A stretch of 64,000 bases of DNA from Humibacter sp. RRB41. GTDB lineage: Bacteria > Actinomycetota > Actinomycetes > Actinomycetales > Microbacteriaceae. The stretch covers positions 124,001-188,000 of the forward strand of contig NZ_JAKWJQ010000004.1 of assembly GCF_022761015.1 (NCBI RefSeq), given 5' to 3'. Below, piece after piece: positions 35,758 to 52,566 of this stretch; the stretch's first letter is position 1; every line of letters starts with the position of its first letter. The notes beneath the pieces are model-generated. The model worked only from the letters and a program-made list of their open reading frames with translations. It ran no database searches and was not told the origin of the DNA. The position numbers and the translations under genes are program-made.

Positions 35758-35769
35758 TGTGCTTCTGCC

Positions 35770-37493: not shown

Positions 37494-38277
37494 GCTCGAG
37501 GCCGTTCGCCCACCTGCGCACCCTGCCGTCGGAGGAGACGACGAGTCCTGAGCGCACGCCGGGCGAGGCGATCCACGACAGGTCGTCGAAACCGGCGATG
37601 ACCGCTGTCGTCGCCCACAGGTCGGCCAGTTCGAGTCCGTCGGCGACCACGGTGGCGCTCGCGACGCCGAGGACGGGAGCGTTCGTGTGTGGATCGATGA
37701 TGTGCGCACCACGCTCGGCCGTTCCCGAGGTGGCGACGGCTCCGTTCCGCACTTCCATCGTGGCCGACACCTCGCCGCAGCGGGTCGGATCGGCGACGCC
37801 CACGTGCCAGAGCCAGGCCGATTCGGCCGCCGTGAAAAGCTGCATGTCTCCTCCGACGTTGATCCCGACGGCATCGATCCCCGCGCGGCCCAGGAGAGGA
37901 GCCAGCATGCTCCGGGCAGCATGCTCGGTCGCCCAGCCTTTGACGTAGCCGGTCGGGTCGAACCATCCGCGCCGCCAGGCGTCGAAGCGGCCGCCGGTGG
38001 AGTCTTTCGCGTCGACGCACGCTGCGCGCACGACGGCCACCCGGGCATCCGCCTCGTCGGCCTCGATCAGTCCGTCGCGCAGGCGGCAGATATCGGAGTC
38101 GTCTCGGAACGTCGAGAAGACGCGCTCCACGTCGCGCAGCTCGTCGAAGCAGGCGTCGATGGCCGCCAGCACGGCACGGTGCTCGCGGCTCCCGTCGGCG
38201 GCGATGACGTGGATGCTCGCCACCGTGCCCATCACCCCGGCGGTGCGGACCGTGCGGCCTTGTCCGGCGGGGATCAC
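37426..38277 (-). CDS. apbE: FAD:protein FMN transferase (ApbE)
   Basis: A protein of 283 aa, GTG start overlapping the stop of the FMN-binding gene (GTGA). It attaches FMN from FAD to a Thr of partner proteins by a phosphoester bond. Motifs: RTAGVMGTVASIHV near the start, DPTGYVKGWATEHA, INVGGDMQLF, and TSGTAERGAHIIDPHT. No signal peptide is obvious, so it may act inside the cell before export of the partner, or the start may be further upstream. Its gene tail overlaps the kinase gene tail on the other strand. Confidence 0.93.
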   Translation of the reverse strand: MIPAGQGRTVRTAGVMGTVASIHVIAADGSREHRAVLAAIDACFDELRDVERVFSTFRDDSDICRLRDGLIEADEADARVAVVRAACVDAKDSTGGRFDAWRRGWFDPTGYVKGWATEHAARSMLAPLLGRAGIDAVGINVGGDMQLFTAAESAWLWHVGVADPTRCGEVSATMEVRNGAVATSGTAERGAHIIDPHTNAPVLGVASATVVADGLELADLWATTAVIAGFDDLSWIASPGVRSGLVVSSDGRVRRWANGLELTASDRSTAAPDALPFAVRRGA

Positions 38278-38804
38278 GCACGTGCCCCGTCCAGTGCGCT
38301 CTGCAGCGACTGCAGGTAGCCGTCGCTCGTGTACGTGGCTCCGGAGACCATGTCGATCTTGGCGCTCTGCGCACTCAACGTCTCGGAGACGAGCGTCGGC
38401 ACGGCCTGCTGATTGATCTGCTGGTCGCGGAAGCTCTGCGTCGGGTACTGCGGAACCGAGACTTTGGTGATCTTTCCACCGGAAACCGTGATCCGAACCT
38501 GGACCGGCCCGTAGCGCGTGTCGACGGCCTGGCCCGTGAAGCTGCCGTCCTTCAGCGAGCTCGACGATGCGGAGGCTGAAGCGGAAGACGAGGGCGAAGA
38601 GGTCGAGGTCGACCCGCTCGCGGTCGATCCCGCCGACGTCGTGCTTCCGGTCGACGTCGAGCCGGACGACCCGGTCGAAGTCCCATTTCGTGTTGTGCCG
38701 CCCGTCGATGCGGCCGGTGCGACGGCATCCAGCGACGTGCGGTAGCTGAACAGCAGCACGACCCCCGCGACCGTGGCCAGCAGGCCGTAGATGATCTTCT
38801 TCAT
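38274..38804 (-). CDS. Membrane-anchored FMN-binding domain protein, ApbE target
   Basis: A protein of 176 aa. One N-terminal membrane anchor (KKIIYGLLATVAGVVLLFSY) leads into a Ser/Thr/Gly-rich linker (about residues 33-85) and an FMN_bind domain ending in DMVSGATYTSDGY. In this family the Thr of SGAT (here T157) carries covalent FMN. The linker would hold the flavin domain away from the membrane outside the cell. Encoded between apbE and a flavocytochrome, so it is the likely electron carrier of the module. The Ser/Thr linker could be mannosylated by the Pmt enzyme encoded at 12.3 kb. Confidence 0.92.
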   Translation of the reverse strand: MKKIIYGLLATVAGVVLLFSYRTSLDAVAPAASTGGTTRNGTSTGSSGSTSTGSTTSAGSTASGSTSTSSPSSSASASASSSSLKDGSFTGQAVDTRYGPVQVRITVSGGKITKVSVPQYPTQSFRDQQINQQAVPTLVSETLSAQSAKIDMVSGATYTSDGYLQSLQSALDGARA

Positions 38805-38835
38805 CGATCTCTCTTCTCGTTCCTTCGCATGCCGC

Positions 38836-40278
38836 TCACACGGTGAAGCGTTCGGTGTGGATGCGGGATGCCGGCAGCCCGGCGGCGCGCAGGTCGTGCG
38901 TCAGGTTGTCCATCCACTGCACGGGTCCGCAGACGTAGGCGTCGTAGAGTTCCAGATCGGGTGCCAGATACCTGATCAGGTCGTCACCCGTCCACTCGGC
39001 GTGAGACTGGGGAAGCCAGGACGAGTGGCCGTGCGAGCGATGACCGTCCAGCCGAGCGAAGCGCAGCCCGCGGTCCTTCACGAGTCGTTCGATCGCTGCG
39101 GAGCGCAGCCCTTCGCTGGGATCGCTGTCCCTGGCGATCAGGGTGGCGTCGCCCGGGGCGTAGCCCTCGGACTCGAGCAGCGAGACCAGCGGAGTCACGC
39201 CTGCGCCCGCGCCGATCATGAGCAGTTTGCGGCCCGTGCGCTCGCGTCCGGTCATGCGACCGTACGGTCCCTCGAACACGACGCGGGTTCCCGGTCGCAG
39301 CGTCGTGAGCCGGGAGGTGCCGTCGCCGATGATGCGCGCCGAGATGCTGAAGTGATTGCCTGCCGGCGCGGAGGCGAGCGAGAACGGATGCCCGCGCATC
39401 CACCCCGCCCCGTCCAGAAATCGCCACACGAAGAATTGGCCGGACTCTGCGCCGAGCCGATGCAGTGTGCGCCCCTCCATGCGCACCAGCACGCCGTGGC
39501 CGCCGTCGGGCTCGACCGCGATGACCCGCACCCGGTGCCGGAGCGAACGGATGATCGGCACGAGTATCCGGAACACGATCAGCGAGAGCGCCGCGAGCGC
39601 CCAGAGCGTCCACCAATACACCGTCGCGAGAGGTGAGGAGAGAAAGTCTGCGCCGGTCCAGAGCATGTGCGGGAGCGAGAAGCCCACGCCGAGGTAGGCG
39701 TAGAGGTGCAGCAGATGCCACGACTCGTAGCGCAGCTTGCGCCGCGCTCGCCGCATCGAGGTGACGACCACCATGACGAGCAGGCCGGTTCCCACCGCGG
39801 CGAGCAGCATGCCCGGGTAGTCCCACACGAACTGCCAAGCCTGCACGAACACGTTGACGTTGCTCTCTGCCGCGTAGCCGAACGTGATCAGCACGATGTG
39901 GGCGAGCATCAGCCAGAACGACCAGAACCCCACGAGCCGGTGCATCCGCGTGATGCCGTCGCGGCCGAAGCCGCGCTCGAACAGCGGCACCCGGGCCATC
40001 AGCAGCACCTGGTACAGCAGAAGGTTCGCGGCGACCAGCCCGGTGACCCTGCCGAGCGTGTCGAGGGTGTCCGCGTCGAACCTCGCCAGATCCTGCACGG
40101 CTCCACCGCTCACCCACAGCGCGACGACGAACAGGCTGGTCAGCCAGATGACGCTCACCGACCCTATCCGCCACCAGTCCGTCGCGGACGCGGCACGACG
40201 AGTCAGATCGGTGCCGCTGGAGATCGGCTCCCGGAGCGGCGGCGACGGCCGCGCGGCGTCCCGCTGGTACGTGGTCAT
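38836..40278 (-). CDS. Ferric reductase-like transmembrane flavocytochrome
   Basis: A protein of 480 aa. The N-terminal half has about six membrane helices with paired histidines for heme (HRLVGFWSFWLMLAHIVLI; SWHLLHLYAYLGVGFSLPHML). The C-terminal half is a ferredoxin-NADP reductase module with the FAD motif RGHPFSLAS and the NAD(P) motif LMIGAGAGVTPLVSLL, ending VCGPVQWMDNL. It would pass electrons from NAD(P)H across the membrane to the flavinylated protein encoded next. Probably the first gene of an operon ending in apbE. Confidence 0.93.
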   Translation of the reverse strand: MTTYQRDAARPSPPLREPISSGTDLTRRAASATDWWRIGSVSVIWLTSLFVVALWVSGGAVQDLARFDADTLDTLGRVTGLVAANLLLYQVLLMARVPLFERGFGRDGITRMHRLVGFWSFWLMLAHIVLITFGYAAESNVNVFVQAWQFVWDYPGMLLAAVGTGLLVMVVVTSMRRARRKLRYESWHLLHLYAYLGVGFSLPHMLWTGADFLSSPLATVYWWTLWALAALSLIVFRILVPIIRSLRHRVRVIAVEPDGGHGVLVRMEGRTLHRLGAESGQFFVWRFLDGAGWMRGHPFSLASAPAGNHFSISARIIGDGTSRLTTLRPGTRVVFEGPYGRMTGRERTGRKLLMIGAGAGVTPLVSLLESEGYAPGDATLIARDSDPSEGLRSAAIERLVKDRGLRFARLDGHRSHGHSSWLPQSHAEWTGDDLIRYLAPDLELYDAYVCGPVQWMDNLTHDLRAAGLPASRIHTERFTV

Positions 40279-40413
40279 GGTGCGATCGTCCCGACCCGGG
40301 TTTGAGACGAATGCAAGAATTCGGCGCTCTCAGGCAACTCCGGGGATACCCATAGGACCGTCTCGATCGGTCATCCGCCCCCATGTGACCCGATACTTGA
40401 ACAAGGAGGAACC

Positions 40414-41391
40414 ATGCGCGCGATCATCCATCACGAATTCGGGGATCCGGCGGAGGTGCTCGGTGTCGAGGACTTGCCCCTGCCCGAGCCTGGAGCGCGC
40501 GAGGTGCGCATCCGAGTGCTCCTCGCGACGATCCACAACCACGATCTGTGGACCGTCCGGGGCACCTACGGCTTCAAACCCGAGCTGCCGGCACGAGCGG
40601 GCACGGAGGCCGTCGGGGTCGTCGATGCGATCGGGGCGGAGATCGAAGGGATCGAGGTCGGGCAGCGCGTCGCCACAGGCGGCACGTTCGGCGCGTGGAG
40701 CGCCTACCTGATCGTGAAACCCGGGGCCGTCGTCCCTGTGCCGGACGGCATCCCCGACGAGGTCGCCGCACAGCTGATCTCGATGCCGTTCAGCGCCATC
40801 ACCCTCGTCGACTTCCTGCAGGTCGGCAAAGGCGACGTGATCGTGCAGAACACCGCGAACGGCACGGTCGGCAGGCTCGTCGCGCAGATCGCGCCGAGCC
40901 GCGGCATCCGTGTCATCGGCATCGTGCGACGCGAGGCGGATGTCGTCGAGCTGGCGAGCGCAGGCATCCTCGACGTCGTCGCGACCAGCGATGACGGTTG
41001 GCGCGACCGAGTGCTCGAGCTGGCCGGCGACCGTCCGATCCGTGCGGCTGTCGATTCCGTCGGCGGTACGGCATCCGGTGACCTGCTGCACCTTCTGGCG
41101 GAGGGCGGAACGCTCGTGTCGTTCGGTGCGATGGCATCCGACCGCATGGAGCTGTCGTCGGGCGACCTGATCTTCAAGCAAGCGGTGGTGAAAGGGTTCT
41201 GGGGCAACAAGGTCTCTGCGGCGATGACCCCTGAGACCCGCCGCGCTCTGTTCGGCGAACTGTTCGGGCTGATCGGCAGCGGTCGGCTCACACTTCCCGT
41301 CGACGGCATCTACGCGTTCGACGATGTGCGGGATGCCGTGATCGCGAGCACCAGGCAGGGCAGGGTCGGAAAGGTGCTCCTGCGACCCTGA
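40414..41391 (+). CDS. Zinc-binding-type MDR oxidoreductase (enoyl reductase-like)
   Basis: A protein of 325 aa, MDR superfamily, with AAGGAGG six bases before ATG 40414. The N-terminal GroES domain (MRAIIHHEFGDPAEVLGVEDLPLPEP; RAGTEAVGVVDAIGAEIEG) and NADPH motif NTANGTVGRLVAQIAPSRG resemble trans-2-enoyl-CoA reductase (MECR) types more than classical alcohol dehydrogenases; I see no zinc cysteines. Substrate not assignable. Confidence 0.87.
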   Translation: MRAIIHHEFGDPAEVLGVEDLPLPEPGAREVRIRVLLATIHNHDLWTVRGTYGFKPELPARAGTEAVGVVDAIGAEIEGIEVGQRVATGGTFGAWSAYLIVKPGAVVPVPDGIPDEVAAQLISMPFSAITLVDFLQVGKGDVIVQNTANGTVGRLVAQIAPSRGIRVIGIVRREADVVELASAGILDVVATSDDGWRDRVLELAGDRPIRAAVDSVGGTASGDLLHLLAEGGTLVSFGAMASDRMELSSGDLIFKQAVVKGFWGNKVSAAMTPETRRALFGELFGLIGSGRLTLPVDGIYAFDDVRDAVIASTRQGRVGKVLLRP

Positions 41392-41395
41392 AGGG

Positions 41396-41414
41396 TTAGA
41401 GGAATCTGGGAACG
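41396..41414 (+). promoter_or_regulatory. Candidate OmpR-type operator, site 1
   Basis: TTAGAGGAATCTGGGAACG. Half-sites TTAG and TGGG are 11 bp apart. The end of the second half-site is 52 bp before the GTG of the TagF fusion gene. It matches the consensus shared with sites at 45926, 46163, 46183, 49676 and (minus strand) 49602. Confidence 0.55.
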
Positions 41415-41461
41415 TCGCGCGAAGACTCTCGGGGCCAGTGCCCCGCCCACCAGGAGTCTCC

Positions 41462-43966
41462 GTGAAGTCACCCGTCGTCCGCATCCGCCGCCAGCTCAAG
41501 CGGGTGCGCCGAGCCGCGCAGTTCGATCGTCACGCCTTCTGGCGCGGCCGTCCGATCCGCGAGGGCACGGTGCTGTACGAATCGTTCTCCGGCAACGGTG
41601 CGTTGTGCAACCCCGAGGCGATCTTTCGTGGACTGCTCGCCGACCCGGACTTCGCGACGCTGGAGCACACCTGGGTTCTCACGGATCCCGCATCGGAGCC
41701 GGCGCTTCTGAAGGAGTTCGCCGACGACGACAGGGTCACTTTCGTGCGGTACCGCACCACCGCCTATTACCGCGCGCTCGCGACCAGCCAGTACCTGATC
41801 AACAACGCGACGTTCCCCGCAGAATTCAGCAAGCGCGATGGACAGATCTATCTCAACACCTGGCACGGCACGCCGTTGAAGATGATGGGATTCGACATGC
41901 CGGGCGGCGCGCTCGACTCGGCCAACACACTGCGCAACTTTCTCTCGGCCGACTACCTTCTGGCGGCCAACGACTTCATGGCCGAGCAGATGTACGAGCA
42001 GGCGTACCGGCTGACGAACATCTACCAGGGACGCATCGTCACCGAGGGGTACCCCCGCGTCGACCGGCAGCGGCTGAGCCCGATCGAGAGGGCGAAGGCC
42101 CTCGAGGCCCTCGAAGACGCGGGAACGGATGTCGCGGGCCGCGGCATCGTGCTCTACGCACCCACCTGGCACGGCGAGAGCTTCGGCCGCCCCGAGGACG
42201 ACATCGACGAGTTGGTCGACGCGGTGTCGAGGCTGCAGCGCGAGCTCGGGCCGGATCGCGTCGTTCTGCTGAAGACGCACCAGATCGTGCACGCGCTGGC
42301 GGCGTCGCGACCGGAGCTGCGGCGCATCCTGGTACCGAATTCCGTGCCGACGAACGTGACACTCGGGCTGTGCGACGGTCTGATCACCGACTACTCGTCG
42401 ATCTTCTTCGACTACCTCGCGACCGGCAAGCCGATCGTGTTCTACACGCCGGATGCCGCCGACTACGCCGAGTCCCGCGGAACGTACTTCGCGCCCGAGG
42501 ACCTTCCCGGCCCGGTCGTCGACGACGCCCACGTCGCCGGTCGCGCGATGCTCGACCTGCTGCGCGCCGCCTCGTCGTGGCCGACGTACGAGGGCTGGCG
42601 CGAACGGTTCGCCTCGCACGAGGACGGCGGAGCGACCAAGCGCGTCATCGACATCGTCTTCAGAGGCGCGACGGGAGGCTACGACGTGCGCGGCGCGCAG
42701 AGCGACGGACGCGAACGTCTGCTGCTGTTCCTCGGCGGCATGCGATCGAACGGCATCACGACGGCCGCCATGAACCTGCTGGGCAGCGTCGATCAGGACC
42801 GATACGACGTCACCGTGCTGATGTCGTACTCGCGCAGGGCGTGGCACAGGGCGAACCAGGCGCTGATCCCCGCCGGGGTGCGTCAGCTGTTCCGCCTCGG
42901 CGGCATGAACGGCAGCAAACTGGTGCATCTCGAACGCAAACTCACCGAGCGGCGAGGAGACGTGCTCTCGCACGCGGACCCGGCACGGCACAAGGCGCTC
43001 TGGGACGACGAATGGGTGAGGGTGTTCGGCGGAGCCGCCTTCGACTGGGTCGCCGACTTCAGCGGCTACAGCCCGTTCTGGGCGACGCTGCTGCTGCACT
43101 CGCCGCAAGTGCCCCGCGCGATCTGGCTGCACAACGAGATGGCCGCAGACCGGCATCGCGAGGTGCACGGCAAGAAGCGCATGCTGCGCAGCCTCGGCAG
43201 GGTCTTCGCGCTGTACCGCTCGTACGACCATCTCGTCTCCGTCTCGCCTCGCCTGACCGAGCTCAACAGCAGAGAGCTCGCGGAGTTCGCGCCGGCCGAC
43301 CGGTTCGTGACGGTGCGCAACCTGCCCAATGTGCAACGCGTTCTCGACGGAGTGCGTCAGCCGCTGGCAGAGCTGCACGGGCATCCGATCGACCAGGACA
43401 CCGAGAAGGTCGTCGTTCCAGGGTGGGTGCCGCGCCTCGAGGAGCACGACGGACGATGGTTCGTCACGGTCGGGCGGCTGTCTCCCGAGAAGAACCACGC
43501 GAGGCTCATCAGGGCGTTCGCGGCGGTGCACGCCAGGCATCCTGACGTGCACCTGCTCATCGTGGGAACCGGACCGCTCCGGGCGCAGCTGCAGACGCAG
43601 ATCGACGAGTTGAGGCTCGGAGACGACATCACCCTCACCGGTGCGTACCAGAATCCGTTCGCGATCATGGCGGCCGCCGACTGCTTCGTGCTCTCCAGCG
43701 TCTACGAGGGGCAGCCGATGGTGCTTCTGGAGGCCGCGGTGTGCGGGCTGCCCATCGTGTCGACGGCGTTCGTGTCCGTGCACGATGCGCTGCCGAACGA
43801 CACGATCCATGCCGTCGAACAGAGCGATCTCGCGCTGCGAGACGGCATGCTCGCCTACCTCGACGGACGCGTGGAGCCGAGCACGCTCGACGTCGCGGCG
43901 TATCGCAACGAGGTCACGTCCGAGTTCACCGACCTCGTCACGGCGCCGCGCTGCGTCAGCACGTGA
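41462..43966 (+). CDS. CDP-glycerol glycerophosphotransferase-glycosyltransferase (GT4) fusion
   Basis: A protein of 834 aa, GTG start with AGGAG five bases upstream. The N-terminal half (about 35-410) is a TagF/TagB-type domain with LNTWHGTPLKMMGFDM, YAPTWHGESFG and LITDYSSIFFDYL. The C-terminal half (about 425-830) is a GT-B, GT4-like glycosyltransferase with VGRLSPEKNHARLIRAF, IVGTGPLRAQL and SVYEGQPMVLLEAAVCGLPIV. It should build or decorate a polyol-phosphate cell-wall glycopolymer at the cytoplasmic face. Fusion of both activities suggests alternating glycerol-phosphate and sugar units, or sugar-capped chains. An operator-like site stands 52 bp upstream. Confidence 0.9.
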   Translation: MKSPVVRIRRQLKRVRRAAQFDRHAFWRGRPIREGTVLYESFSGNGALCNPEAIFRGLLADPDFATLEHTWVLTDPASEPALLKEFADDDRVTFVRYRTTAYYRALATSQYLINNATFPAEFSKRDGQIYLNTWHGTPLKMMGFDMPGGALDSANTLRNFLSADYLLAANDFMAEQMYEQAYRLTNIYQGRIVTEGYPRVDRQRLSPIERAKALEALEDAGTDVAGRGIVLYAPTWHGESFGRPEDDIDELVDAVSRLQRELGPDRVVLLKTHQIVHALAASRPELRRILVPNSVPTNVTLGLCDGLITDYSSIFFDYLATGKPIVFYTPDAADYAESRGTYFAPEDLPGPVVDDAHVAGRAMLDLLRAASSWPTYEGWRERFASHEDGGATKRVIDIVFRGATGGYDVRGAQSDGRERLLLFLGGMRSNGITTAAMNLLGSVDQDRYDVTVLMSYSRRAWHRANQALIPAGVRQLFRLGGMNGSKLVHLERKLTERRGDVLSHADPARHKALWDDEWVRVFGGAAFDWVADFSGYSPFWATLLLHSPQVPRAIWLHNEMAADRHREVHGKKRMLRSLGRVFALYRSYDHLVSVSPRLTELNSRELAEFAPADRFVTVRNLPNVQRVLDGVRQPLAELHGHPIDQDTEKVVVPGWVPRLEEHDGRWFVTVGRLSPEKNHARLIRAFAAVHARHPDVHLLIVGTGPLRAQLQTQIDELRLGDDITLTGAYQNPFAIMAAADCFVLSSVYEGQPMVLLEAAVCGLPIVSTAFVSVHDALPNDTIHAVEQSDLALRDGMLAYLDGRVEPSTLDVAAYRNEVTSEFTDLVTAPRCVST

Positions 43967-44139
43967 TCAGCTGAACCGAGATCCTCATGCAGCCTGCAAG
44001 GCATCAGGGAACCGCCGGATTGCGCCGCATCGGCGTCGCTGTCGGCATCCTCCATCCCCATCGTGATACCTCTGATCCTGAACCACGCGTCGCCGAGGAG
44101 CCACGGCACGCGCACGACACGGTCAGAAGGGTGCACACC

Positions 44140-44823
44140 ATGCCGGCGGCCGACCACGACGCAGACCTGCGCCCCTACCTGCTGCTCGTCGAAGACGATC
44201 CGCGGCTGGGGCCTTTGATGGCCAAGGCGCTGCAGCCCTCGTTCGAGGTGGAACTCGTCGCCGACGGGCAGGAGGGGCTCGAGCGGGCCATCACCGGCGA
44301 CCACGACGTCATGGTGATCGACCGAAGGCTGCCGCACCTCGACGGGCTGAGCATCGTGCAGAAGCTGCGGGGCGCCAGGGTGGTCACGCCCATCCTGCTG
44401 CTGACGGCGCTCGGCACGACCGCCGACAAGGTCGACGGCCTCGACGCCGGCGCGAACGACTACCTCGTCAAGCCGTTTGAGTACGACGAGCTCACGGCGA
44501 GGCTGCGCGCCCTGACCAGGCGGTTCGACCCGCAGGGCATCGGCATCCCCGTCGGAGAGTGGACGTTCTACCCCGACGACGGATGCATCTACTCGCCGCA
44601 CATCGGGCGCATCCTTCTGACCCCCCGCGAGAACGCCCTGTTGCGGCTGTTCGCCGAAAGCCCGGACCGCACCTTCAGCAGGGAGCAGATTCTGCGCACC
44701 GTCTTCAGCGCCGACGACCAGCCGGGCACCGTCGACACCTATGTGCACTATCTGCGACGCAAGACCGACAAAGACATCGTGCTCACCGTGCGCCGCAGGG
44801 GTTACCGCCTGGGACAACTGTGA
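44140..44823 (+). CDS. OmpR-family response regulator (system 2)
   Basis: A protein of 227 aa close in sequence to the regulator at 35770. Receiver motifs: LLVEDDPRLGPL, phosphoacceptor in VMVIDRRLPHLDG, LLLTALG and DYLVKPFEYDE; winged helix with ILLTPRENALLRLFAESPDRTFSREQIL and DTYVHYLRRK. ATG 44140 is chosen at the usual distance from the receiver; the preceding 172 bp hold a degenerate copy of the operator motif at 43995. The stop overlaps the kinase start. Likely the regulator of the envelope genes around it. Confidence 0.92.
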   Translation: MPAADHDADLRPYLLLVEDDPRLGPLMAKALQPSFEVELVADGQEGLERAITGDHDVMVIDRRLPHLDGLSIVQKLRGARVVTPILLLTALGTTADKVDGLDAGANDYLVKPFEYDELTARLRALTRRFDPQGIGIPVGEWTFYPDDGCIYSPHIGRILLTPRENALLRLFAESPDRTFSREQILRTVFSADDQPGTVDTYVHYLRRKTDKDIVLTVRRRGYRLGQL

Positions 44824-45818
44824 CAGGCCGGCGAGACCGCTCGCGCGGCACGGATGCCGACGCTATCGCCCACGCATCCCGCATCGTCACAGCGCAGATC
44901 ACCGTTGCGGCCGCCGCCATCGTGGTCCTCGTGGTCGTGGCGTCCGTGGTGTTCATCATCGATCAGTCTCAGCCGAGCGAACTGCTGGAGAAGCCTGCGC
45001 CGGGAGAGAACAAGATCTACGTCGACGCCGACGACATGCTGATCGCCCTGGTCGTGGTCGGCGCGGTCGCCATCGTGCTCGCCGGGCTGCTCAGCTGGGT
45101 GGTCGCCCGGCGCGCGGTACGGCCGCTGGGCGAGGCGTTGCGCATCCAGCGCACCTTCGTCGCGGACGCCAGCCACGAGCTGCGCACGCCCGTCGCGGTG
45201 GTCGCGGCCCGTGTCGAAGTGCTCAGACAGGAGATCGGCGCCGGCGCTGATCCCACCGAGAACCTGCGGGGACTGCAGCAGGATGTGAGTCTGCTCGGCG
45301 ACGTGATCACCGATCTGCTGCTCGCCGCCGCCCCACCGGCCGAACAGGAGCCGAGGCAGGTGATCGAGGTCGTCGAGGTCGTCGAGCACACACTCGCCGA
45401 CCTGCGGATGCTCGCAGCCCGCCGCGACATCGCCCTCGAGTTCACCTCGCACGGGCGCCCGACGACCGCTGTTCCGGCCACCTCGTTGCGTCGCTGCGTG
45501 GTCGCGCTCGTCGACAATGCGATCGGTCACTCGCCGGACGGCGGGCTCGTCGAGGTGATCGTCGGCCCTGAGCGCGACAGGTCGCAGTTCGTGCTCTCGG
45601 TGAAGGACCACGGATCGGGAATCACCGGCATCGATCCCGGCCGCTTGTTCGAACGGTTCGCCCACGGCGACGGCGCGACGGTCGGGCCGGCGCGAACCGG
45701 CTTCGGGATCGGGTTGGCGCTGGTGCGCGATCTCGCCGATCGTTACGGCGGGCGCATCGAGGTCTCCGACACGTCATCGGCCGGCACCACGTTCACGCTC
45801 TCGTTGCCGCGCTCCTGA
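44820..45818 (+). CDS. Sensor histidine kinase (system 2)
   Basis: A protein of 332 aa, GTG start overlapping the regulator stop (GTGA). Two membrane helices (about 25-48 and 77-98) with a roughly 28-residue outer loop (DQSQPSELLEKPAPGENKIY), then H box FVADASHELRTPVAVV, N box LVDNAIGHSP, G boxes DHGSGITG and GFGIGLALV. It is a paralogue of the kinase at 36471, with the same short sensor loop, hinting at a signal within the membrane or its surface. Confidence 0.93.
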   Translation: MTGRRDRSRGTDADAIAHASRIVTAQITVAAAAIVVLVVVASVVFIIDQSQPSELLEKPAPGENKIYVDADDMLIALVVVGAVAIVLAGLLSWVVARRAVRPLGEALRIQRTFVADASHELRTPVAVVAARVEVLRQEIGAGADPTENLRGLQQDVSLLGDVITDLLLAAAPPAEQEPRQVIEVVEVVEHTLADLRMLAARRDIALEFTSHGRPTTAVPATSLRRCVVALVDNAIGHSPDGGLVEVIVGPERDRSQFVLSVKDHGSGITGIDPGRLFERFAHGDGATVGPARTGFGIGLALVRDLADRYGGRIEVSDTSSAGTTFTLSLPRS

Positions 45819-45925
45819 CGATCGCGACAGGCACGGGAAAGGCGCGAAGGCCTCGCGGCCGGCATCCGCGACTTCGAACCCTCTCAGCCGCTCTCGGAGG
45901 CCGTGACGTCATGAAAACCGCCCTC

Positions 45926-45944
45926 TGAGTCGAATCTGGGAGCC
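45926..45944 (+). promoter_or_regulatory. Candidate OmpR-type operator, site 2
   Basis: TGAGTCGAATCTGGGAGCC; half-sites 11 bp apart; second half-site ends 48 bp before GTG 45988. It shares GAATCTGGGA with site 1. A degenerate relative with one base missing lies at 45884-45901. Confidence 0.5.
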
Positions 45945-45987
45945 GTCGTCGCACCGTGGTGTCCGAGGTTCGAAGCGCGGAGGTGTC

Positions 45988-46137
45988 GTGGACGTCAAGT
46001 GGATCATCGGGGTGTCGACCGGCTGCGCTGCCGCCTTGTCGGTGGTCGTGTTCTTCGGGCTCGCGGTACTGGGCAACGAGTCGAGGCTGCGCGAGGAGGA
46101 ATGGGCGCCGGACGAGGTCGAGTGGGCGGACGAGTGA
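45988..46137 (+). CDS. Tiny single-span membrane protein with acidic tail
   Basis: A protein of 49 aa, GTG start with GGAGGTG two to three bases upstream. One membrane helix (about residues 4-28, WIIGVSTGCAAALSVVVFFGLAVL) is followed by an acidic tail rich in Glu/Asp and Trp (ESRLREEEWAPDEVEWADE). A second gene of the same build lies at 49410-49547. It has its own operator-like site, directly after the two-component system. I do not recognise a family; a small regulator or partner of an envelope enzyme is possible. Confidence 0.65.
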   Translation: MDVKWIIGVSTGCAAALSVVVFFGLAVLGNESRLREEEWAPDEVEWADE

Positions 46138-46162
46138 AGGCTCCCGTTCTCGGTGTGTCGTC

Positions 46163-46181
46163 TTGGCGACTCCTGGGAACG
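46163..46181 (+). promoter_or_regulatory. Candidate OmpR-type operator, site 3
   Basis: TTGGCGACTCCTGGGAACG; shares TGGGAACG with site 1; half-sites 11 bp apart; ends 44 bp (second half-site) before ATG 46221. Confidence 0.5.
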
Positions 46182-46182
46182 C

Positions 46183-46201
46183 TTAGCCGCTTCTTGGAGA
46201 G
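46183..46201 (+). promoter_or_regulatory. Candidate OmpR-type operator, site 3b
   Basis: TTAGCCGCTTCTTGGAGAG; 20 bp downstream of site 3, on the same helical face; very close to site 4 (TTGGCGGTTTCTTGGAG). Two sites in tandem suggest cooperative binding at this promoter. Confidence 0.5.
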
Positions 46202-46220
46202 TTCTGGCTGAGCTTGGCCC

Positions 46221-47747
46221 ATGCTTCAGCTCGCACCGGAATCGGCGCCCGTCGCCGTTCACCACGTCGCGCGCCGCCGGCTTTGGGTCGTCTCCCTCGT
46301 CGTCGGAGTGACGGCGAGCGTCGTCAGCCTGATCGGATCGTGGATCCCGTCGCTCTGGGGCGACGAGGCCGCGAGCGTGCTCTCGGCCCAGCGACCGCTC
46401 GGGAGCCTCTTCATGATGCTCGGGCACGTGGATGCCGTGCACGGCTTCTACTACGTCGGCTTGCACTTCTGGGTCGGTATCGCCGGCTCCAGCCCTTTCG
46501 CGGTACGGCTGCCGAGCGCGATCGCGGTCGGCGTCGCGGCCGCCGCCGTCAGCTGGCTGTGCGGGCGCCTCGGCTCGACGCGGCTCGCCATACTCGCGGG
46601 AGCGATCGCCGTGGTGCTCCCGCGACTCACCTACTCGGGCGAGGAGGCGCGCGCCTACGCGTTCGACGCGGGCATCGCCGCCGTGCTGTGCGTGATCGTG
46701 GCGGAGGTCGTGCTGCGGCGCGGCCGCTCGATCGGGCTGTGGGTCGCGTACGGGGCGGTTCTCACGCTCGGCATCTACAGCTTCGTGTACGTCGGGCTGA
46801 TGGCGCTCGCCGCAGGTGTCTTCGTGCTGGTCACCCCGTCGGCACGACACCACCTGCGTGCCTGGGCGATCGCCGCCGGCGCCGCCGTCGTGGCATCCAC
46901 GCCCCTGCTGATCTTCGCGTTCCTCGAACGCGACCAGGTCTCCTACCTGCACCATCGCGTCGAGGTCACTCCGTCGTCGGTGCTCGTGCAGATGTGGTTC
47001 GGCGCCGTGCCGTTCGCGATCGTCGCGTGGGTGCTCATCGCCGTCGCGATCATCGTGCCCGTCGTGAAAGCGGTGCGGGCCAGACGGGCGCGAACCGCGA
47101 TGGTCGCGCAAGGGCATCCGAGCGTCGTCGCACTCGCCGCCTGCTGGTTGTCCATTCCTGTCGGGCTGCTGATCGTGTCGAGCCCGTTGATCGCCGGGTA
47201 CACAGCCAGATACGGCACGTTCGCGGCACCGGCCGCCGCCGTGCTGATGGCGTGCGGCATCGAGGCCATCGGCAAACGGGTCTGGATGCGCGTGGCGGCC
47301 GTGGCCGTCGTGGTCGCCACAGCCCTTCCGATCTGGGTCGGTCAGCGCGAGGCGTACGCGATGAACGAGTCCGACTGGAACGAGATCGCCTCCACCGTGC
47401 ACGCCAAGGCGCAGCAGGGCGACGGCATCGTCTTCGACGAGGCCGTTCGTCCATCACGTCGAACGCGCCTGGCGATGGACACCGATCCCGCTGCCTTCGA
47501 CGCTGTGAAGGACGTCACTCTGAGCTCGCCCTACGCCGACAACCCGACCTGGCACGACGACACGTACACCGTCACGCAGGCCGCGGGCCTCGGCCGCTTC
47601 TCCGGCATCGACCGGGTCTGGGTCGTTGAGTACTCGACGGGAGGCCACACTGACACCTGGGGCATCTCCTCGCTGGAGGCGCTCGGGTACCACCGCACGG
47701 TCGCATACACGGAGCACCGAAGCGTCATCTACCTTTTCACCCGGTGA
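46221..47747 (+). CDS. GT-C fold membrane glycosyltransferase (GT39-like)
   Basis: A protein of 508 aa with about eleven membrane helices. The first outer loop has the GT-C catalytic acidic pair in SLWGDEAASVLSA, followed by GFYYVGLHFWVGIAGSSPFAVRLPSA and YSGEEARAYAF, as in polyprenyl-phosphate-sugar-dependent mannosyl/arabinosyl transferases. The C-terminal about 130 residues are a soluble outer domain. It would glycosylate a cell-wall polymer or lipoglycan outside the membrane. It follows the two-component system and carries two operator-like sites. Confidence 0.85.
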   Translation: MLQLAPESAPVAVHHVARRRLWVVSLVVGVTASVVSLIGSWIPSLWGDEAASVLSAQRPLGSLFMMLGHVDAVHGFYYVGLHFWVGIAGSSPFAVRLPSAIAVGVAAAAVSWLCGRLGSTRLAILAGAIAVVLPRLTYSGEEARAYAFDAGIAAVLCVIVAEVVLRRGRSIGLWVAYGAVLTLGIYSFVYVGLMALAAGVFVLVTPSARHHLRAWAIAAGAAVVASTPLLIFAFLERDQVSYLHHRVEVTPSSVLVQMWFGAVPFAIVAWVLIAVAIIVPVVKAVRARRARTAMVAQGHPSVVALAACWLSIPVGLLIVSSPLIAGYTARYGTFAAPAAAVLMACGIEAIGKRVWMRVAAVAVVVATALPIWVGQREAYAMNESDWNEIASTVHAKAQQGDGIVFDEAVRPSRRTRLAMDTDPAAFDAVKDVTLSSPYADNPTWHDDTYTVTQAAGLGRFSGIDRVWVVEYSTGGHTDTWGISSLEALGYHRTVAYTEHRSVIYLFTR

Positions 47748-47806
47748 TCCTTTTCGCTGTGTGATCGCCCCGTCCACCCCTGTCCCCAGCACCGCAGAGG
47801 CATTGA

Positions 47807-48595
47807 ATGACCCGCACCATGCTCCGCACATCCACGCACCGCCGGACCGGCCCGCAGCGCGTACCGAACCCGACGGCACTGTTCTGGATCACGAAGGGCG
47901 TCTCGACGGCGATGGGCGAGGCCGTCTCCGACTTCTCGATCCACGTGCTCCCACCCGTCGTCGCGGTGCTCTGCGGGTTCGTGCTGTTCGTCGTCGCTCT
48001 GATCGTTCAGCTCACCCGGCGCCGTTACACGCCGTGGGCGTACTGGACGGCAGTCGGCATGGTGGGCGTCTTCGGCACGATGGCCGCCGACGTGATGCAC
48101 GTCGCGCTGGGCGTTCCATACGCGGTGTCGACGCTGTTCTACGCGGTGGTGCTCGCCTGCGTGTTCCTGCTCTGGTGGCGTCTGGAAGGCACGCTGTCGG
48201 TGCACAAGGTGGACACGTTCGGCAGGGAGGCGTTCTACTGGGCAGCCGTCGTCGCGACGTTCGCCATGGGGACTGCGCTCGGCGACCTCGCCGCTGTCGG
48301 GCTCGGCCTCGGGTACCTCACGTCGATCGTCGTCTTCGCCGTCGTCATCCTGGTGCCGGCCATGGGCTACCGTTTCGCGCACTGGAACGCGGTGTTCTCG
48401 TTCTGGTTCGCGTACGTGGTGACACGCCCGCTCGGCGCGTCGATCGCCGACTGGTTCGGCAAGACGCCGGCCGAAGGCGGGCTCGGCGCCGGCGAGGGGT
48501 GGACATCGCTCGCCCTCGTCGTGCTGATGGCGAGCCTGGTCGTTGCGATGTACGTGCGTGCTCCTGGGCGGCGGATGCCTGTGGTCGAGCCGTGA
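47807..48595 (+). CDS. COG4705-type membrane protein
   Basis: A protein of 262 aa with seven or eight membrane helices and an internal duplication: NPTALFWITKGVSTAMGEAVSDF near the start and EAFYWAAVVATFAMGTALGDLAAVGL in the second half, the hallmark of COG4705 membrane-anchored proteins. The repeat of charged residues in helices (K...GE..SD) suggests a transport or ion-coupled role, but none is known to me. Upstream is a 59-bp gap after the GT-C gene. Confidence 0.8.
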   Translation: MTRTMLRTSTHRRTGPQRVPNPTALFWITKGVSTAMGEAVSDFSIHVLPPVVAVLCGFVLFVVALIVQLTRRRYTPWAYWTAVGMVGVFGTMAADVMHVALGVPYAVSTLFYAVVLACVFLLWWRLEGTLSVHKVDTFGREAFYWAAVVATFAMGTALGDLAAVGLGLGYLTSIVVFAVVILVPAMGYRFAHWNAVFSFWFAYVVTRPLGASIADWFGKTPAEGGLGAGEGWTSLALVVLMASLVVAMYVRAPGRRMPVVEP

Positions 48596-48618
48596 TGCTC
48601 GTGGTGCCGACGGTTCCG

Positions 48619-48624
48619 TAGGCT
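48619..48624 (+). promoter_or_regulatory. -10 box for leaderless FetB-like gene
   Basis: TAGGCT, six bases (CTGGGC), then ATG 48631; no ribosome site. Confidence 0.5.
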
Positions 48625-48630
48625 CTGGGC

Positions 48631-49374
48631 ATGACGTCAGTGCTTCTGAACAGCATCATCGGGGTCGTGCTCCTGATGGCGCTGGCCACGGGGGTGCTCT
48701 GGGTCTACGGGGCGCCCAAGCACTGGGCGCCGGCTCTGGCTGTGCTGCGCGGCGTCGTTCAACTCGCCATCTTGAGCGTGATCCTCACCGGAGTGATCAC
48801 CAACGGCTTCTGGGTGGCGCTCGCGTTGCTCGTGATGTTCACCGTGGCATCCGTCACCGCCGTCAGGCGCATCCACTGGACGCGGGATCACGCCCTGATG
48901 ATCTTCACGGCGATGGGCGCAGGGATCGTCGTCACGCTGACGATCGTGTTCGTCACGGGGACGATCGAGTTCTCACCGCGGTACGTGCTCGCGATCGGCG
49001 GCATCGTGATCGGCAACTCGATGACGATCGCCACCCTCGCAGGACGTCGCTTCACCGAACTGGTGCGCGACAGATGGGATCAGGTCGAGGCGTGGATGTC
49101 ACTGGGCGCCACCCCGCGCCAGTCGACCAGAGACCTCGCTCGCGACGCCGTCTACGCCGCGCTGATCCCCTCGACGGACCAGACCAAGACGACCGGGCTC
49201 GTCACCCTGCCCGGCGCCTTCGTCGGCGCGATCTTCGGCGGGGTCTCGCCTCTGGAAGCCGGACGGTTCCAGATCGTCGTGCTCGCGGCGATCATGGCGG
49301 CCGGCGCGATCACCGCAGTCATCATCGCCACGTGGATGGCCCCGGTGCGGGTCAAACCCAAGGCGCTCGTCTGA
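48631..49374 (+). CDS. FetB-like (UPF0014) ABC transporter permease
   Basis: A protein of 247 aa with about seven membrane helices and family motifs LRGVVQLAILSVIL, IGGIVIGNSMTIATLAGRRF, EAWMSLGATPRQSTRDLARDAVYAALIPSTDQTKTTGLVTLPGAFVGAIFGGVSPLEAGRFQIVV. In E. coli FetB works with the ATPase FetA in iron export. No fetA is adjacent here, so the ATPase must be elsewhere or the protein acts alone. Confidence 0.88.
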   Translation: MTSVLLNSIIGVVLLMALATGVLWVYGAPKHWAPALAVLRGVVQLAILSVILTGVITNGFWVALALLVMFTVASVTAVRRIHWTRDHALMIFTAMGAGIVVTLTIVFVTGTIEFSPRYVLAIGGIVIGNSMTIATLAGRRFTELVRDRWDQVEAWMSLGATPRQSTRDLARDAVYAALIPSTDQTKTTGLVTLPGAFVGAIFGGVSPLEAGRFQIVVLAAIMAAGAITAVIIATWMAPVRVKPKALV

Positions 49375-49409
49375 CGCCGGCCGCCCGCATCAGAGGCGTG
49401 GCCGCCCGG

Positions 49410-49547
49410 TCAGTCGTCGAGCTCGTCGCGGGCGAATTCGCTGTCGAGCGACACCTCACCGGCCGAACCCAGTGCGGCCATCACGAAGAGCGCGCCTAGG
49501 CCTGCGGCTGCGGTCACGCACGCCACGGTCATCCATGCCCAGATCAT
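49410..49547 (-). CDS. Tiny single-span membrane protein with acidic tail (second)
   Basis: A protein of 45 aa; ATG 49547 has GGGGAGGA just upstream on the minus strand. One membrane helix (MIWAWMTVACVTAAAGLGALFVMAALG) and an acidic tail (EVSLDSEFARDELDD). Same build and size as the product of 45988-46137 although residues differ. It is divergent from the DedA gene and has an operator-like site (49602-49584) ending 40 bp before its start. Confidence 0.62.
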   Translation of the reverse strand: MIWAWMTVACVTAAAGLGALFVMAALGSAGEVSLDSEFARDELDD

Positions 49548-49583
49548 CTGGTCCTCCCCACGTCGATTTCAGCCTGACCGGGT

Positions 49584-49602
49584 CGTTCACAGAATCCGCA
49601 CA
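49584..49602 (-). promoter_or_regulatory. Candidate OmpR-type operator, site 5
   Basis: Minus strand TGTGCGGATTCTGTGAACG; half-sites TGTG and TGTG 11 bp apart; CTGTGAACG differs from site 1 CTGGGAACG by one base. It precedes the tiny membrane protein gene. Confidence 0.45.
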
Positions 49603-49675
49603 GACCCGTCACCCTGCGAGGACCCTCAGCCGAGAGACCGGTGCGCGACCTCGCTGCCCTGCCTGCCGTGCTTGG

Positions 49676-49694
49676 TTGGCGGTTTCTTGGAGCG
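49676..49694 (+). promoter_or_regulatory. Candidate OmpR-type operator, site 4
   Basis: TTGGCGGTTTCTTGGAGCG; half-sites TTGG 11 bp apart; second half-site ends 52 bp before the DedA GTG, the same distance as site 1 to its gene. Confidence 0.55.
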
Positions 49695-49741
49695 GCCATC
49701 GGAAGCTGGATGTCCACCCCGATCTCTCGAGGAGAACGCCC

Positions 49742-50437
49742 GTGCTCACTCTCTCGGCACTGCACGCCTCAGCCGTGTCCGTCGCCTATGCAGGCTGGCT
49801 CGAATCCGTCGGCCCGTGGCTGCTGGTCATCGTCGCCGCTTTCGTGCTGATCGAAACAGGGCTGCTTTTCCCGTTCCTGCCGGGCGACACCCTGCTCTTC
49901 GCCGCCGCGATCATGGCGGGCAGCGCCGGCATCCCGATTCCGGTTCTGATCGCGGTCGCCGCGGTCGCCGGCATCGCGGGCGACCAGATCGGCTATGCGA
50001 TCGGCAGACGGTTCGGCAGGGGCTTGTTCAAAGACGATGCGCGCATCCTGAAGACGAAGTACCTGCTGCGCACCGACGCGTTCTTCTCGAAGTACGGGCC
50101 GTTCGCGATCGTGCTGGCGAGGTTCGCGCCCATCGTGCGCACCTTCGTTCCGCCGCTCGCGGGGGCATCGACCATGCGCTACCGGGTGTTCCTGGTGTGG
50201 AATGTCGTCGGAGGGATCGCATGGTCGACCGTCATCTGCCTGGCGGGTCTGCTACTGGGCAAGATCCCGTTCGTTGGGTCGAACCTCGACGTGATCTCGG
50301 TGGCCATCCTGCTTCTCTCGCTTGCGCCGTTCGGCGTCTCGTACCTGCGTGGCAGGCGCCGTTCGCGTCGCGCGCAGCCGGAGACCGAGACCGAAGCCGA
50401 TACGGCGACCGAGCGCGAGCCGGCCCCGCTTCCGTGA
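49742..50437 (+). CDS. DedA family membrane protein
   Basis: A protein of 231 aa, GTG start with GAGGAG upstream. Motifs: FVLIETGLLFPFLPGDTLLFAAAIMA, AGDQIGYAIGRRFGRGLFK and the key arginines in FARFAPIVRTFVPPLAGAS. DedA proteins flip phospholipid or undecaprenyl-phosphate carriers and support envelope integrity. Its stop overlaps the acyltransferase start (GTGA), so both are co-translated. The operator-like site 4 lies upstream. Carrier-lipid recycling would fit with the glycopolymer genes nearby. Confidence 0.93.
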   Translation: MLTLSALHASAVSVAYAGWLESVGPWLLVIVAAFVLIETGLLFPFLPGDTLLFAAAIMAGSAGIPIPVLIAVAAVAGIAGDQIGYAIGRRFGRGLFKDDARILKTKYLLRTDAFFSKYGPFAIVLARFAPIVRTFVPPLAGASTMRYRVFLVWNVVGGIAWSTVICLAGLLLGKIPFVGSNLDVISVAILLLSLAPFGVSYLRGRRRSRRAQPETETEADTATEREPAPLP

Positions 50438-51552
50438 CGGATTCCCATCCGCGTGCCGCACCTGCCGTGACGACGGGCCGGCGCAAGCTCTACGAACTCG
50501 AGGTCGTGCGCGTGCTCACGTTCGCGTGCGTGATCGCCGTGCACGTCGTCAGCCACACGGCTGCAGGGAGCGTGCCCCTGATCGCTTCGCTGATCCTGCT
50601 GCACTTCACGCGTGAGGTGTTCTTCGCCCTGACCGGGTTCGTGCTCACGTTCGGCTACCTGCGGCATCCGAGGCCGATGCGCACGTTCTGGCCGCGGCGG
50701 TTCCTGCTCGTCGGCGTTCCGTACCTGGTGTGGACGTTCATCTACTGCGTGATCAGCCAGATCGGGCATCCGTTCGACCTCGGCGCGTTCCTCGTGCACC
50801 TCGGTCTGTCGGCGCTCACCGGAACCGCGTATTACCACCTGTACTTCCTGCTGGTGACGATGCAGATCTACCTGCTGTTCCCGTTGCTGATCAGGCTGGT
50901 CATCGTCAGCAGGCGGTGGCACTGGCTGGTGCTCCTCATCGCATTCGCCGTTCAGCTGACCACGAGCGGCATGGATGCCTACGCTCCCGGTTCCCTGCAC
51001 TGGCTCAACATCGTGACCAACGTGATCGATTACCAGGCGTTCATCATCGGCGGGGCGATCGCCGCCGACCACGTCATGGCGGTGATGGCGTTCGTGCGCA
51101 CCCACCGGCGCGGCATCGCGATCGCGACGGTGGCCTCAGCGGCCGTCACGGTCGGGGTGTACTACGTGCAGCTCGCGGCCGGATTCTCCGCCTACCGTGC
51201 TGCGACCGCGTACCAGCCCGTCGTCATCCTGTGGTCGGTCGTCGCCGGCGTCGCGCTGATGGCGCTCGGAGCGTGGTGGGTCGACCGACGACCCGGCGCG
51301 CACCATCGCACGCTCGACTACCTCTCCGACCGCTCGTTCGGCGTCTTCCTGGCACATCCGCTGGTGCTCTGGGCGCTGCTCGGCATCTTCGGAGGGTTCG
51401 TCTCAGGATGGCCGCCCGTACTGGTGGCCCTCGCTGCGTACCCGATCGTCGCACTGGGCGCGCTCGCCATCGCCGACGGCGCGCGCCGCAGCATCCTGAG
51501 CCTTCCGCTCGCCGGCCGGCCGCACACCGCCCGGCTGAAGAACATTCCGTGA
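50434..51552 (+). CDS. Acyltransferase 3 family membrane protein
   Basis: A protein of 372 aa with about ten membrane helices. The N-terminal catalytic histidine lies in VVRVLTFACVIAVHVVSH, followed by FTREVFFALTGFVLTFGY and RRFLLVGVPYLVWTFIYC; LSDRSFGVFLAHPLVLW near the end is typical of the family. These enzymes O-acylate surface polysaccharides or lipids. GTG 50434 overlaps the dedA stop, so it belongs to the same envelope operon. Confidence 0.92.
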   Translation: MTDSHPRAAPAVTTGRRKLYELEVVRVLTFACVIAVHVVSHTAAGSVPLIASLILLHFTREVFFALTGFVLTFGYLRHPRPMRTFWPRRFLLVGVPYLVWTFIYCVISQIGHPFDLGAFLVHLGLSALTGTAYYHLYFLLVTMQIYLLFPLLIRLVIVSRRWHWLVLLIAFAVQLTTSGMDAYAPGSLHWLNIVTNVIDYQAFIIGGAIAADHVMAVMAFVRTHRRGIAIATVASAAVTVGVYYVQLAAGFSAYRAATAYQPVVILWSVVAGVALMALGAWWVDRRPGAHHRTLDYLSDRSFGVFLAHPLVLWALLGIFGGFVSGWPPVLVALAAYPIVALGALAIADGARRSILSLPLAGRPHTARLKNIP

Positions 51553-51614
51553 CCGGCTCATGCCGTCGTTCTCGGGATGCCGCGGCGCAGGTCGAGTCCC
51601 GCGTCGCAACCCCG

Positions 51615-51620
51615 TAGGTT
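51615..51620 (+). promoter_or_regulatory. -10 box for leaderless ispE
   Basis: TAGGTT, seven bases (GGTATCC), then ATG 51628; no Shine-Dalgarno sequence. Confidence 0.5.
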
Positions 51621-51627
51621 GGTATCC

Positions 51628-52566
51628 ATGACCGCCGTGAGCCTGGGCTTGCCCATCCACACCAGAGCTCCGGGCAAGGTCAACCTCTATCTGGGCGTCG
51701 GTGCGGTCGGCGACGACGGGTACCACGACGTGGCCACCGTCTACCAGGCCGTTTCGCTGTACGAAGACGTGCGCGTCTGGCGTGCCGACGAGATCTCGCT
51801 GACCTTCACGGGGCCGATCGACTGCTCAGGTCTTCCGACGGACGATCGCAACATCGCCGTGCGCGCCGCGCAGTTGGTCGCTGACGCGGCAGGGGTGCAG
51901 GGCGGCGTGCGTATCGAGATCGAGAAGAACGTACCCATCGCGGGCGGCATGGGCGGCGGGTCTGCGGATGCCGCGGCCACGCTCGTCGCCTGCGACGCGC
52001 TGTGGAACGCCGGCCTCAGCCGGGAGCGACTGCACGAGCTGGCAGCCGAGCTGGGCGCCGATGTGCCGTTCGCGCTCTCCGGCGGAACCGCGATCGGGCT
52101 CGGGCGCGGTGACGAGCTGAGTCCTGTGCTCTCGCGGGGACGTTTCGAGTGGGTGCTCGTGCTGCCACGAGGGGAGCTCTCCACGCCCGCCGTCTACCGC
52201 GAGCTCGACGTGCATCGTGAACGGCACGCGGGGGAGTTGGCGCCGGCGGTGGAGCATCCTTCGGTGAGCAACGAGCTGCTTCAGGCGCTTCGCGCCGGCG
52301 ATCCGACGATGCTCGCCGAGAATCTGGCGAACGATCTGCAGGCGCCTGCGATCCACCTCTCCGACGAACTCGCCGACGTTCTCGAACTGGGGGAGCGCAG
52401 CGGGGCTCTGGCCGGCCTCGTTTCCGGGTCGGGACCCACCGTGGCGTTCCTCGCCGAGGATCGCGAGTCGGCGATCGACCTGCAGATCGCCCTGAGCGCC
52501 GCCCAGTTGCGGGCAGCGCGCGTTTCAGCGCCGGTGCACGGCGCGCGCGTGATGCCCCCGGCGTAG
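51628..52566 (+). CDS. ispE: 4-diphosphocytidyl-2-C-methyl-D-erythritol kinase
   Basis: A protein of 312 aa, GHMP kinase of the MEP isoprenoid pathway. It shows [13 protein letters not shown], the ATP loop [40 protein letters not shown] and [13 protein letters not shown]. It is part of the conserved rsmA-ispE backbone, separated here by accessory genes. Its product feeds the undecaprenyl carriers used by the envelope enzymes. Confidence 0.96.

Follow-up and report, generated by a model that had tools for sequence, protein, structure and literature searches.

A direct repeat with a −10 element in fixed phase marks a putative local envelope regulon of an OmpR-type two-component system in Humibacter and other Microbacteriaceae

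Regulons of the PhoB/PmrA kind are well known. The PmrAB system (BasRS of enterobacteria) has envelope-modifying targets, and its kinase PmrB carries an ExxE motif. The PmrA box is described as a pair of half-sites arranged head to tail at a distance of 11 bp, TCTTAATATTATCCTAAGC (PMC3973317), and in PmrA and PhoB promoters the −35 element is reported to lie at half-site 1 (PMC4660055). The kinase ColS of the ColRS system of Pseudomonas is reported to sense zinc and iron by ExxE (PMC4074579), and the ColR regulon is described as encoding membrane proteins and as including PAP2 and GtrA-family genes (PMC2689224, PMC4074579). This report concerns a window of 64,000 nucleotides from Humibacter sp. 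RRB41 (contig NZ_JAKWJQ010000004.1, positions 124,001 to 188,000; “the window” is this whole stretch), in which six copies of a direct repeat precede envelope genes around the genes of an OmpR-type response regulator (RR1) and a histidine kinase (HK1). With a probability of roughly 0.86, the six copies are binding sites of RR1 that drive class II activation of these genes. Each of the following was demonstrated by computation: the site, its −10 element, the conservation of the site and its link to RR1. An earlier note on this DNA had proposed a local envelope regulon of an OmpR-type system, and the proposal is supported: the genome holds no further exact match, the sites are kept in relatives, and their presence follows RR1. 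No description of this regulon was found in the open-access literature, most subscription papers lying outside the scope of the search.

RR1 (44140..44823, plus strand) comprises a receiver (PF00072) and a winged helix (PF00486), both above cut-off, which is the domain composition of OmpR/PhoB regulators, and its best solved relative by sequence is BasR/PmrA. Among the best 25 of 87 NCBIfam models it is below the cut-off of every one, including the PmrA equivalog NF007928 (121.9 bits, cut-off 330), CseB NF041733 (129.6, cut-off 350) and the heavy-metal regulator TIGR01387 (122.5, cut-off 279.2). PmrAB and ColRS appear to be the closest analogues. The repeat has the same spacing as the PmrA box, given as CTTAAG-N5-xTTAAT (PMC3973317), but its half-site ends in G rather than A; of the PmrA residues compared, the base-contacting His193 is Tyr in RR1 whereas His195 is kept, and the targets of RR1, unlike those of PmrA, are Gram-positive wall genes. 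The 16-bp ColR consensus, (T/C)(T/C)NA(C/G)NN(T/C)TTTTT(C/G)AC (PMC2689224), does not fit the RR1 box when the two are compared by eye, and the predicted ColR regulon is scattered over the genome, whereas that of RR1 is packed around its regulator in the genus. With the class II promoters of PhoB there is the likeness of a direct repeat in the −35 place, close upstream of the −10 element (PMC4660055), and a difference in both sequence and targets.

The six gapless 19-mers are all present where the earlier note had placed them; T1, G4, C11, T12, G15 and A16 are identical in all six, and the two T..G halves are indeed 11 bp apart. By consensus the sites form a direct repeat, TCTKRG-N5-TCTKRG, with one half in columns −1 to 4 and the other in columns 10 to 15 (the 19-mer being columns 1–19), i.e., two tandem half-sites at the 10–11 bp that is usual for OmpR/PhoB regulators. 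The sites do stand upstream of genes, at a measured 19–47 nt from site end to start codon in place of the 20–55 bp that had been claimed. When each site in turn was held out and the 64 kb were scanned on both strands with a matrix of the other five, it ranked 5th or 6th of all window positions, i.e., level with or just behind the five training sites. A degenerate pattern made from the six sites has exactly six matches in the genome of 3,893,083 bases, all in the window, and its reversed control has none. As this pattern was fitted to the same six sites that it recovers, and a search with mismatches (given below) stays near its control, independent support was needed from relatives, from which it did come.

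At a fixed distance of about 10 bp downstream of the repeat there is a −10 element; the repeat thus seems to take the −35 place, as in PhoB/PmrA-type promoters, and the motif to be one half of a composite promoter. In the window, operator and −10 element lie on the plus strand at 41396-41414 and 41422-41427 before the gene of a TagF–GT4 fusion, at 45926-45944 and 45952-45957 before the gene of a 49-aa membrane protein (smp49), at 46183-46201 and 46209-46214 (a weak −10) before a GT-C transferase gene, and at 49676-49694 and 49702-49707 before dedA and an acyltransferase gene, and on the minus strand at 49584-49602 and 49571-49576 before the gene of a 45-aa membrane protein (smp45). The remaining site, 46163-46181 (plus strand), also upstream of GT-C, looks like an accessory to 46183, because it has no −10 element at the right phase.

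The phase of the −10 element was assessed in set A, i.e., 20 loci of other genera that were ranked by their RR1 homologue and picked before any pattern search there. The 19-column matrix, which holds no information on the −10 element, gave 27 matches above 14 bits (reversed control, 4); of these, 17 have ANNNT at column 28, against no more than 3 at any other offset, and a start codon (ATG or GTG) is found at column 39 in 10, at column 40 in 3 and elsewhere in no more than 3. Across all 41 loci, which are partly selected, the corresponding counts for ANNNT and for the start codon are 34 and 25 of 50 matches. Thus, the fixed phase just upstream of the −10 element, replacing the −35 element, that defines class II promoters is seen in 17/27 of the set A matches. 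Outside the matrix, C is found at column 0 in 34 and T at column −1 in 27 of 37 sites with an identified gene in other genera (23/27 and 15/27, respectively, among the set A matches). In many targets the start codon appears to coincide with the predicted start of transcription; for GT-C in the window a leaderless mRNA is predicted, as its ATG at 46221 is column 39 of site 46183, and the other four targets have predicted leaders of about 17 to 28 nt.

Two other readings of such a promoter have to be weighed here. The first is a promoter for an alternative sigma factor of the extracytoplasmic function (ECF) type, with GGGAAC as the −35 element: in several sites the 3′ part (TGGGAACG) is similar to a GGAAC −35 element, and a −10-like element does follow. 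However, GGGA lies about 10 bp from the −10 element, closer than a sigma factor would allow, what is conserved is an 11-bp direct repeat that includes the C at column 0, and the presence of the sites follows RR1; on these grounds the sigma-factor promoter was rejected as highly unlikely. In the second reading, which would count against activation, RR1 does bind, but as a repressor, and polymerase is blocked at the repeat until the signal arrives. The position of the site over the −35 place would suit a repressor, but the phase of the −10 element is fixed across genera, as an activator needs and as repressors, which usually tolerate varied spacing, do not, so that repression is improbable.

The genus was represented by five genomes, i.e., the own genome (G000) and G001 to G004, of which G004 is 87% complete. 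RR1 was found at 1e-50 in four of them (own, G001, G002 and G003) and was not found at that threshold in G004. In G001–G003 the genes of TagF–GT4, RR1, HK1, GT-C, DUF347 and UPF0014 lie together in one stretch, and the claim that the sites are kept upstream of the same genes holds for most targets in these three relatives. A site with its −10 element in phase is found upstream of TagF–GT4 in all four RR1-bearing genomes, upstream of smp49 in all three genomes in which the gene was found (own, G002 and G003), upstream of GT-C in G000, G001 and G003, and upstream of smp45 in G000 and G003, with one more before a longer relative in G001. A genus pattern of site plus −10 element has 12 matches in the four RR1-bearing genomes, all inside the RR1 cluster, and one in G004, which lacks RR1 (control, 3 in the five genomes); since the matches inside the cluster are there by construction, the finding is the absence of matches elsewhere. 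In G001 a 16.2-bit site was also seen at L043:19747-19778, upstream of TagF–GT4, before a gene that is sulfotransferase-like by eye.

The “degenerate copy” that had been noted at 43995, before the gene of RR1, did not survive this comparison: it scores 8.4 bits and ranks 21st in the window list, and the 160 bp upstream of RR1 in relatives contain no site like it by inspection and no matrix match above 9 bits. In the same region, at 44060-44084, a stretch resembling GTGATACCTCTGATC is shared between G000 and G003, with a similar one in G002; it may be RR1's own promoter.

At the level of the family, 299 Microbacteriaceae genomes were compared, in which RR1 was counted as present at E ≤ 1e-60 and more distant homologues were counted as absent. 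A relaxed pattern, which includes the −10 element and was shaped after set A and the genus sites were known, matched in 31 of 59 genomes with RR1 versus 19 of 240 without (Fisher 1.5e-13). The matches number 47 in the former and 20 in the latter, against 5 and 25 (30 in total) for the reversed control, so that genomes without RR1 are at background; 32 of the 47 lie no more than 10 kb from an RR1 homologue, a zone of about 0.7% of the sequence of these genomes. A strict pattern, TTAGN4TTCTTAGA..., was too narrow and matched 2/299 genomes, both with RR1. A matrix of 13 genus sites, made without site 46163, gave 31 sites above 14 bits in 15 of the 20 set A loci (reversed control, 1; dinucleotide shuffles, 1 to 3). 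For set B, 20 loci of which 10 were picked because the relaxed pattern matched there and whose counts are therefore partly selected, there were 25 sites versus 1 in the control; together, sets A and B represent 40 of the 55 RR1-bearing genomes outside the genus. In Microbacterium mangrovi, whose locus had not been part of the earlier sets, a site of 26.2 bits lies between HK1 and DUF347. One locus (L131 of G284) carries a further regulator gene resembling RR1 (55% along a short stretch) that has a site of its own, and a divergent gene for a small acidic-tail membrane protein, also with a site.

The genes of DUF347 membrane proteins were compared in 70 upstream regions that came from 62 of 80 DUF347-bearing genomes (40 loci hand-chosen, 20 per class, mostly without copies already known beside RR1, and 30 not). 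A site above 10 bits was found in 20 of 42 in genomes with RR1 versus 0 of 28 in genomes without it; above 14 bits the counts are 12/42 and 0/28, and the best score among the 28 is 3.9. Around 54 more distantly related regulators of other groups, 621 kb of sequence gave 4 matches above 14 bits, and no match above that score was found at seven paralogue loci of the own genome.

A closer competitor for the sites is the paralogue RR2 (35770-36474), which shares 52% identity with RR1 and is encoded on the same segment, as part of a second two-component system (35770-37493, RR2 plus a kinase) that is adjoined by ApbE and FMN-binding genes. The sites might belong to RR2 or to both regulators, but G001 and G002 have sites and no second regulator at 1e-50, which implies that RR2 is not needed and led to its rejection as sole binder, and around RR2 and its relative in G003 there is no matrix match above 9 bits. 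A role of RR2, alone or shared, is thus very unlikely, and RR1 at 44140 is the most likely binder.

Several results weigh against the proposal that the repeat is an RR1 operator. In the own genome the 19-mer with two mismatches has 127 matches versus 118 in the control, no useful excess (134/124, 111/115, 183/165 and 96/91 in G001 to G004), and because relaxed searches barely exceed their controls, weak extra sites there do not appear to be callable. G002 has no site directly upstream of GT-C, which lies close behind smp49 in that genome. Matches to the relaxed pattern are absent from 28/59 genomes with RR1, and of 10 further loci picked without knowledge of sites only 4 have one above 14 bits. 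Likewise, 22 of the 42 DUF347 regions in RR1-bearing genomes have no site above 10 bits, including all four genus copies, for which an operon with GT-C is assumed. Either the motif drifts or linkage is not universal.

What we infer from the above comprises binding, activation, phosphorylation, the signal and the functions of the genes. HK1 would sense envelope stress outside the cell and signal to RR1; two RR1 monomers would bind head to tail on the repeat, in place of a −35 box; and RR1 would recruit RNA polymerase to the −10 element about 10 bp downstream, as PhoB or PmrA does in class II activation. The genes thereby switched on would be those of teichoic-acid-like and polyprenyl-linked glycosylation, of lipid-carrier recycling (DedA; PAP2 in other genera), together with those of a DUF347 membrane protein and of small membrane proteins with acidic tails.

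Two hydrophobic stretches of HK1 (44820..45818, plus strand) enclose a loop of about 25 residues, in which SELLEKP is kept in the four genus kinases; all four thus have SELLE, an ExxE in the outside domain of the kinase, as in ColRS. Loops were read in 36 of 44 kinases (40 loci plus four from the genus), the other eight having no kinase match, an unrelated one or an incomplete reading; ExxE occurs in 26, ExxD in 4 and neither in 6. Excess metal ions, bound through ExxE as by ColS, are a possible though tentative signal. The frequency of the motif would fit, as would the up-regulation by lead of three operons of UppP plus DUF347 that is reported in Frankia (PMC4531530); but six loops have neither motif, ExxE is short, it lies beside the first membrane segment in HK1 and beside the second in ColS, and cationic peptides or lipid-carrier drugs are equally compatible with the gene set. 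Metal, cationic peptide and carrier stress are therefore all candidate signals of HK1.

The targets in the window are as follows. TagF–GT4 (41462..43966, plus strand) is a fusion of 834 aa of TagF (PF04464) with GT4 (PF00534). The GT-C transferase (46221..47747, plus strand) has a PMT_2 domain, and its best NCBIfam model, mannosyltransferase (MT1671), is below cut-off; the gene of the DUF347 membrane protein that follows (47807..48595, plus strand) has no site of its own in the window and is likely to be co-transcribed with GT-C. DedA (49742..50437, plus strand; 231 aa) has a VTT domain, and the start of the acyltransferase gene (Acyl_transf_3; 50434..51552, plus strand) overlaps the dedA stop (ATGA). 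Some DedA proteins are reported to be lipid-carrier flippases, one of them important for polymyxin resistance, in a family that is also described as having subfamilies with other functions (PMC12893004, PMC10127716). The window DedA is below the cut-offs of the NCBIfam models for the carrier flippase UptA (55 vs 300 and 43.2 vs 250 bits) and of the DedA model PRK10847 (157.7 vs 236).

Behind the 31 sites of set A, the relatives of window genes are DUF347 (9), GT-C (5), RR1 (3), TagF–GT4 (2) and DedA (2), with none in 10; when the partly selected set B is added, the counts become DUF347 15, GT-C 8, RR1 6, DedA 5 and TagF–GT4 3. One of these DUF347 genes sits behind a small protein gene. Ten more proteins downstream of sites were compared with Pfam, which gave PAP2 for seven, GT2 for one, DUF2127 for one and no name for one; two of the seven site-linked PAP2 genes are far from RR1. 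The common theme of the targets would be polyprenyl-phosphate carrier supply and wall glycosylation. Among 28 DUF347 homologues there are invariant Asp, Glu and His residues, including D42, D95, H98, H133, E141, D160 and D215, which are suggestive of a transporter.

The proteins smp49 (45988..46137, plus strand) and smp45 (49410..49547, minus strand) each have a single transmembrane segment, an acidic tail and no Pfam match. Small proteins of this description are found behind sites in 8 of the 40 loci, in addition to L131, and (L/V)L(A/S)E follows the membrane segment in 7 of 15 that were aligned. By description they can be likened to MgrB, which has 47 aa, lies in the membrane and is reported to inhibit PhoQ, the kinase to whose regulon it belongs (PMC8404706).

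The own genome has a segment of 15.8 kb (35758-51576) that holds both two-component systems and all six sites with their targets, and that is flanked by a ksgA-type gene (34870-35757) and a gene for a GHMP kinase (51577-52566). These two flanking genes are direct neighbours in all four of G001–G004, and in G001–G003 the RR1 cluster is located elsewhere. Thus, regulator, operators and targets differ in place together. The GHMP kinase gene is presumably ispE.

A more far-reaching idea, at present a speculative one, is that of a Gram-positive counterpart of PmrAB/ColRS, in which the sensing of metals or peptides would drive carrier recycling and wall glycosylation, often from leaderless class II promoters, in which tiny acidic-tail proteins would damp the kinase in the manner of MgrB, and which would relocate with its targets as a unit. 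For Microbacteriaceae, the findings provide a regulator, an operator and a gene set that can be tested. They tie DUF347, a family without known function, to the genes of DedA and PAP2, and they allow a set of tiny membrane proteins to be defined by promoter instead of by sequence. A single reporter driven by one of these promoters could reveal the signal.

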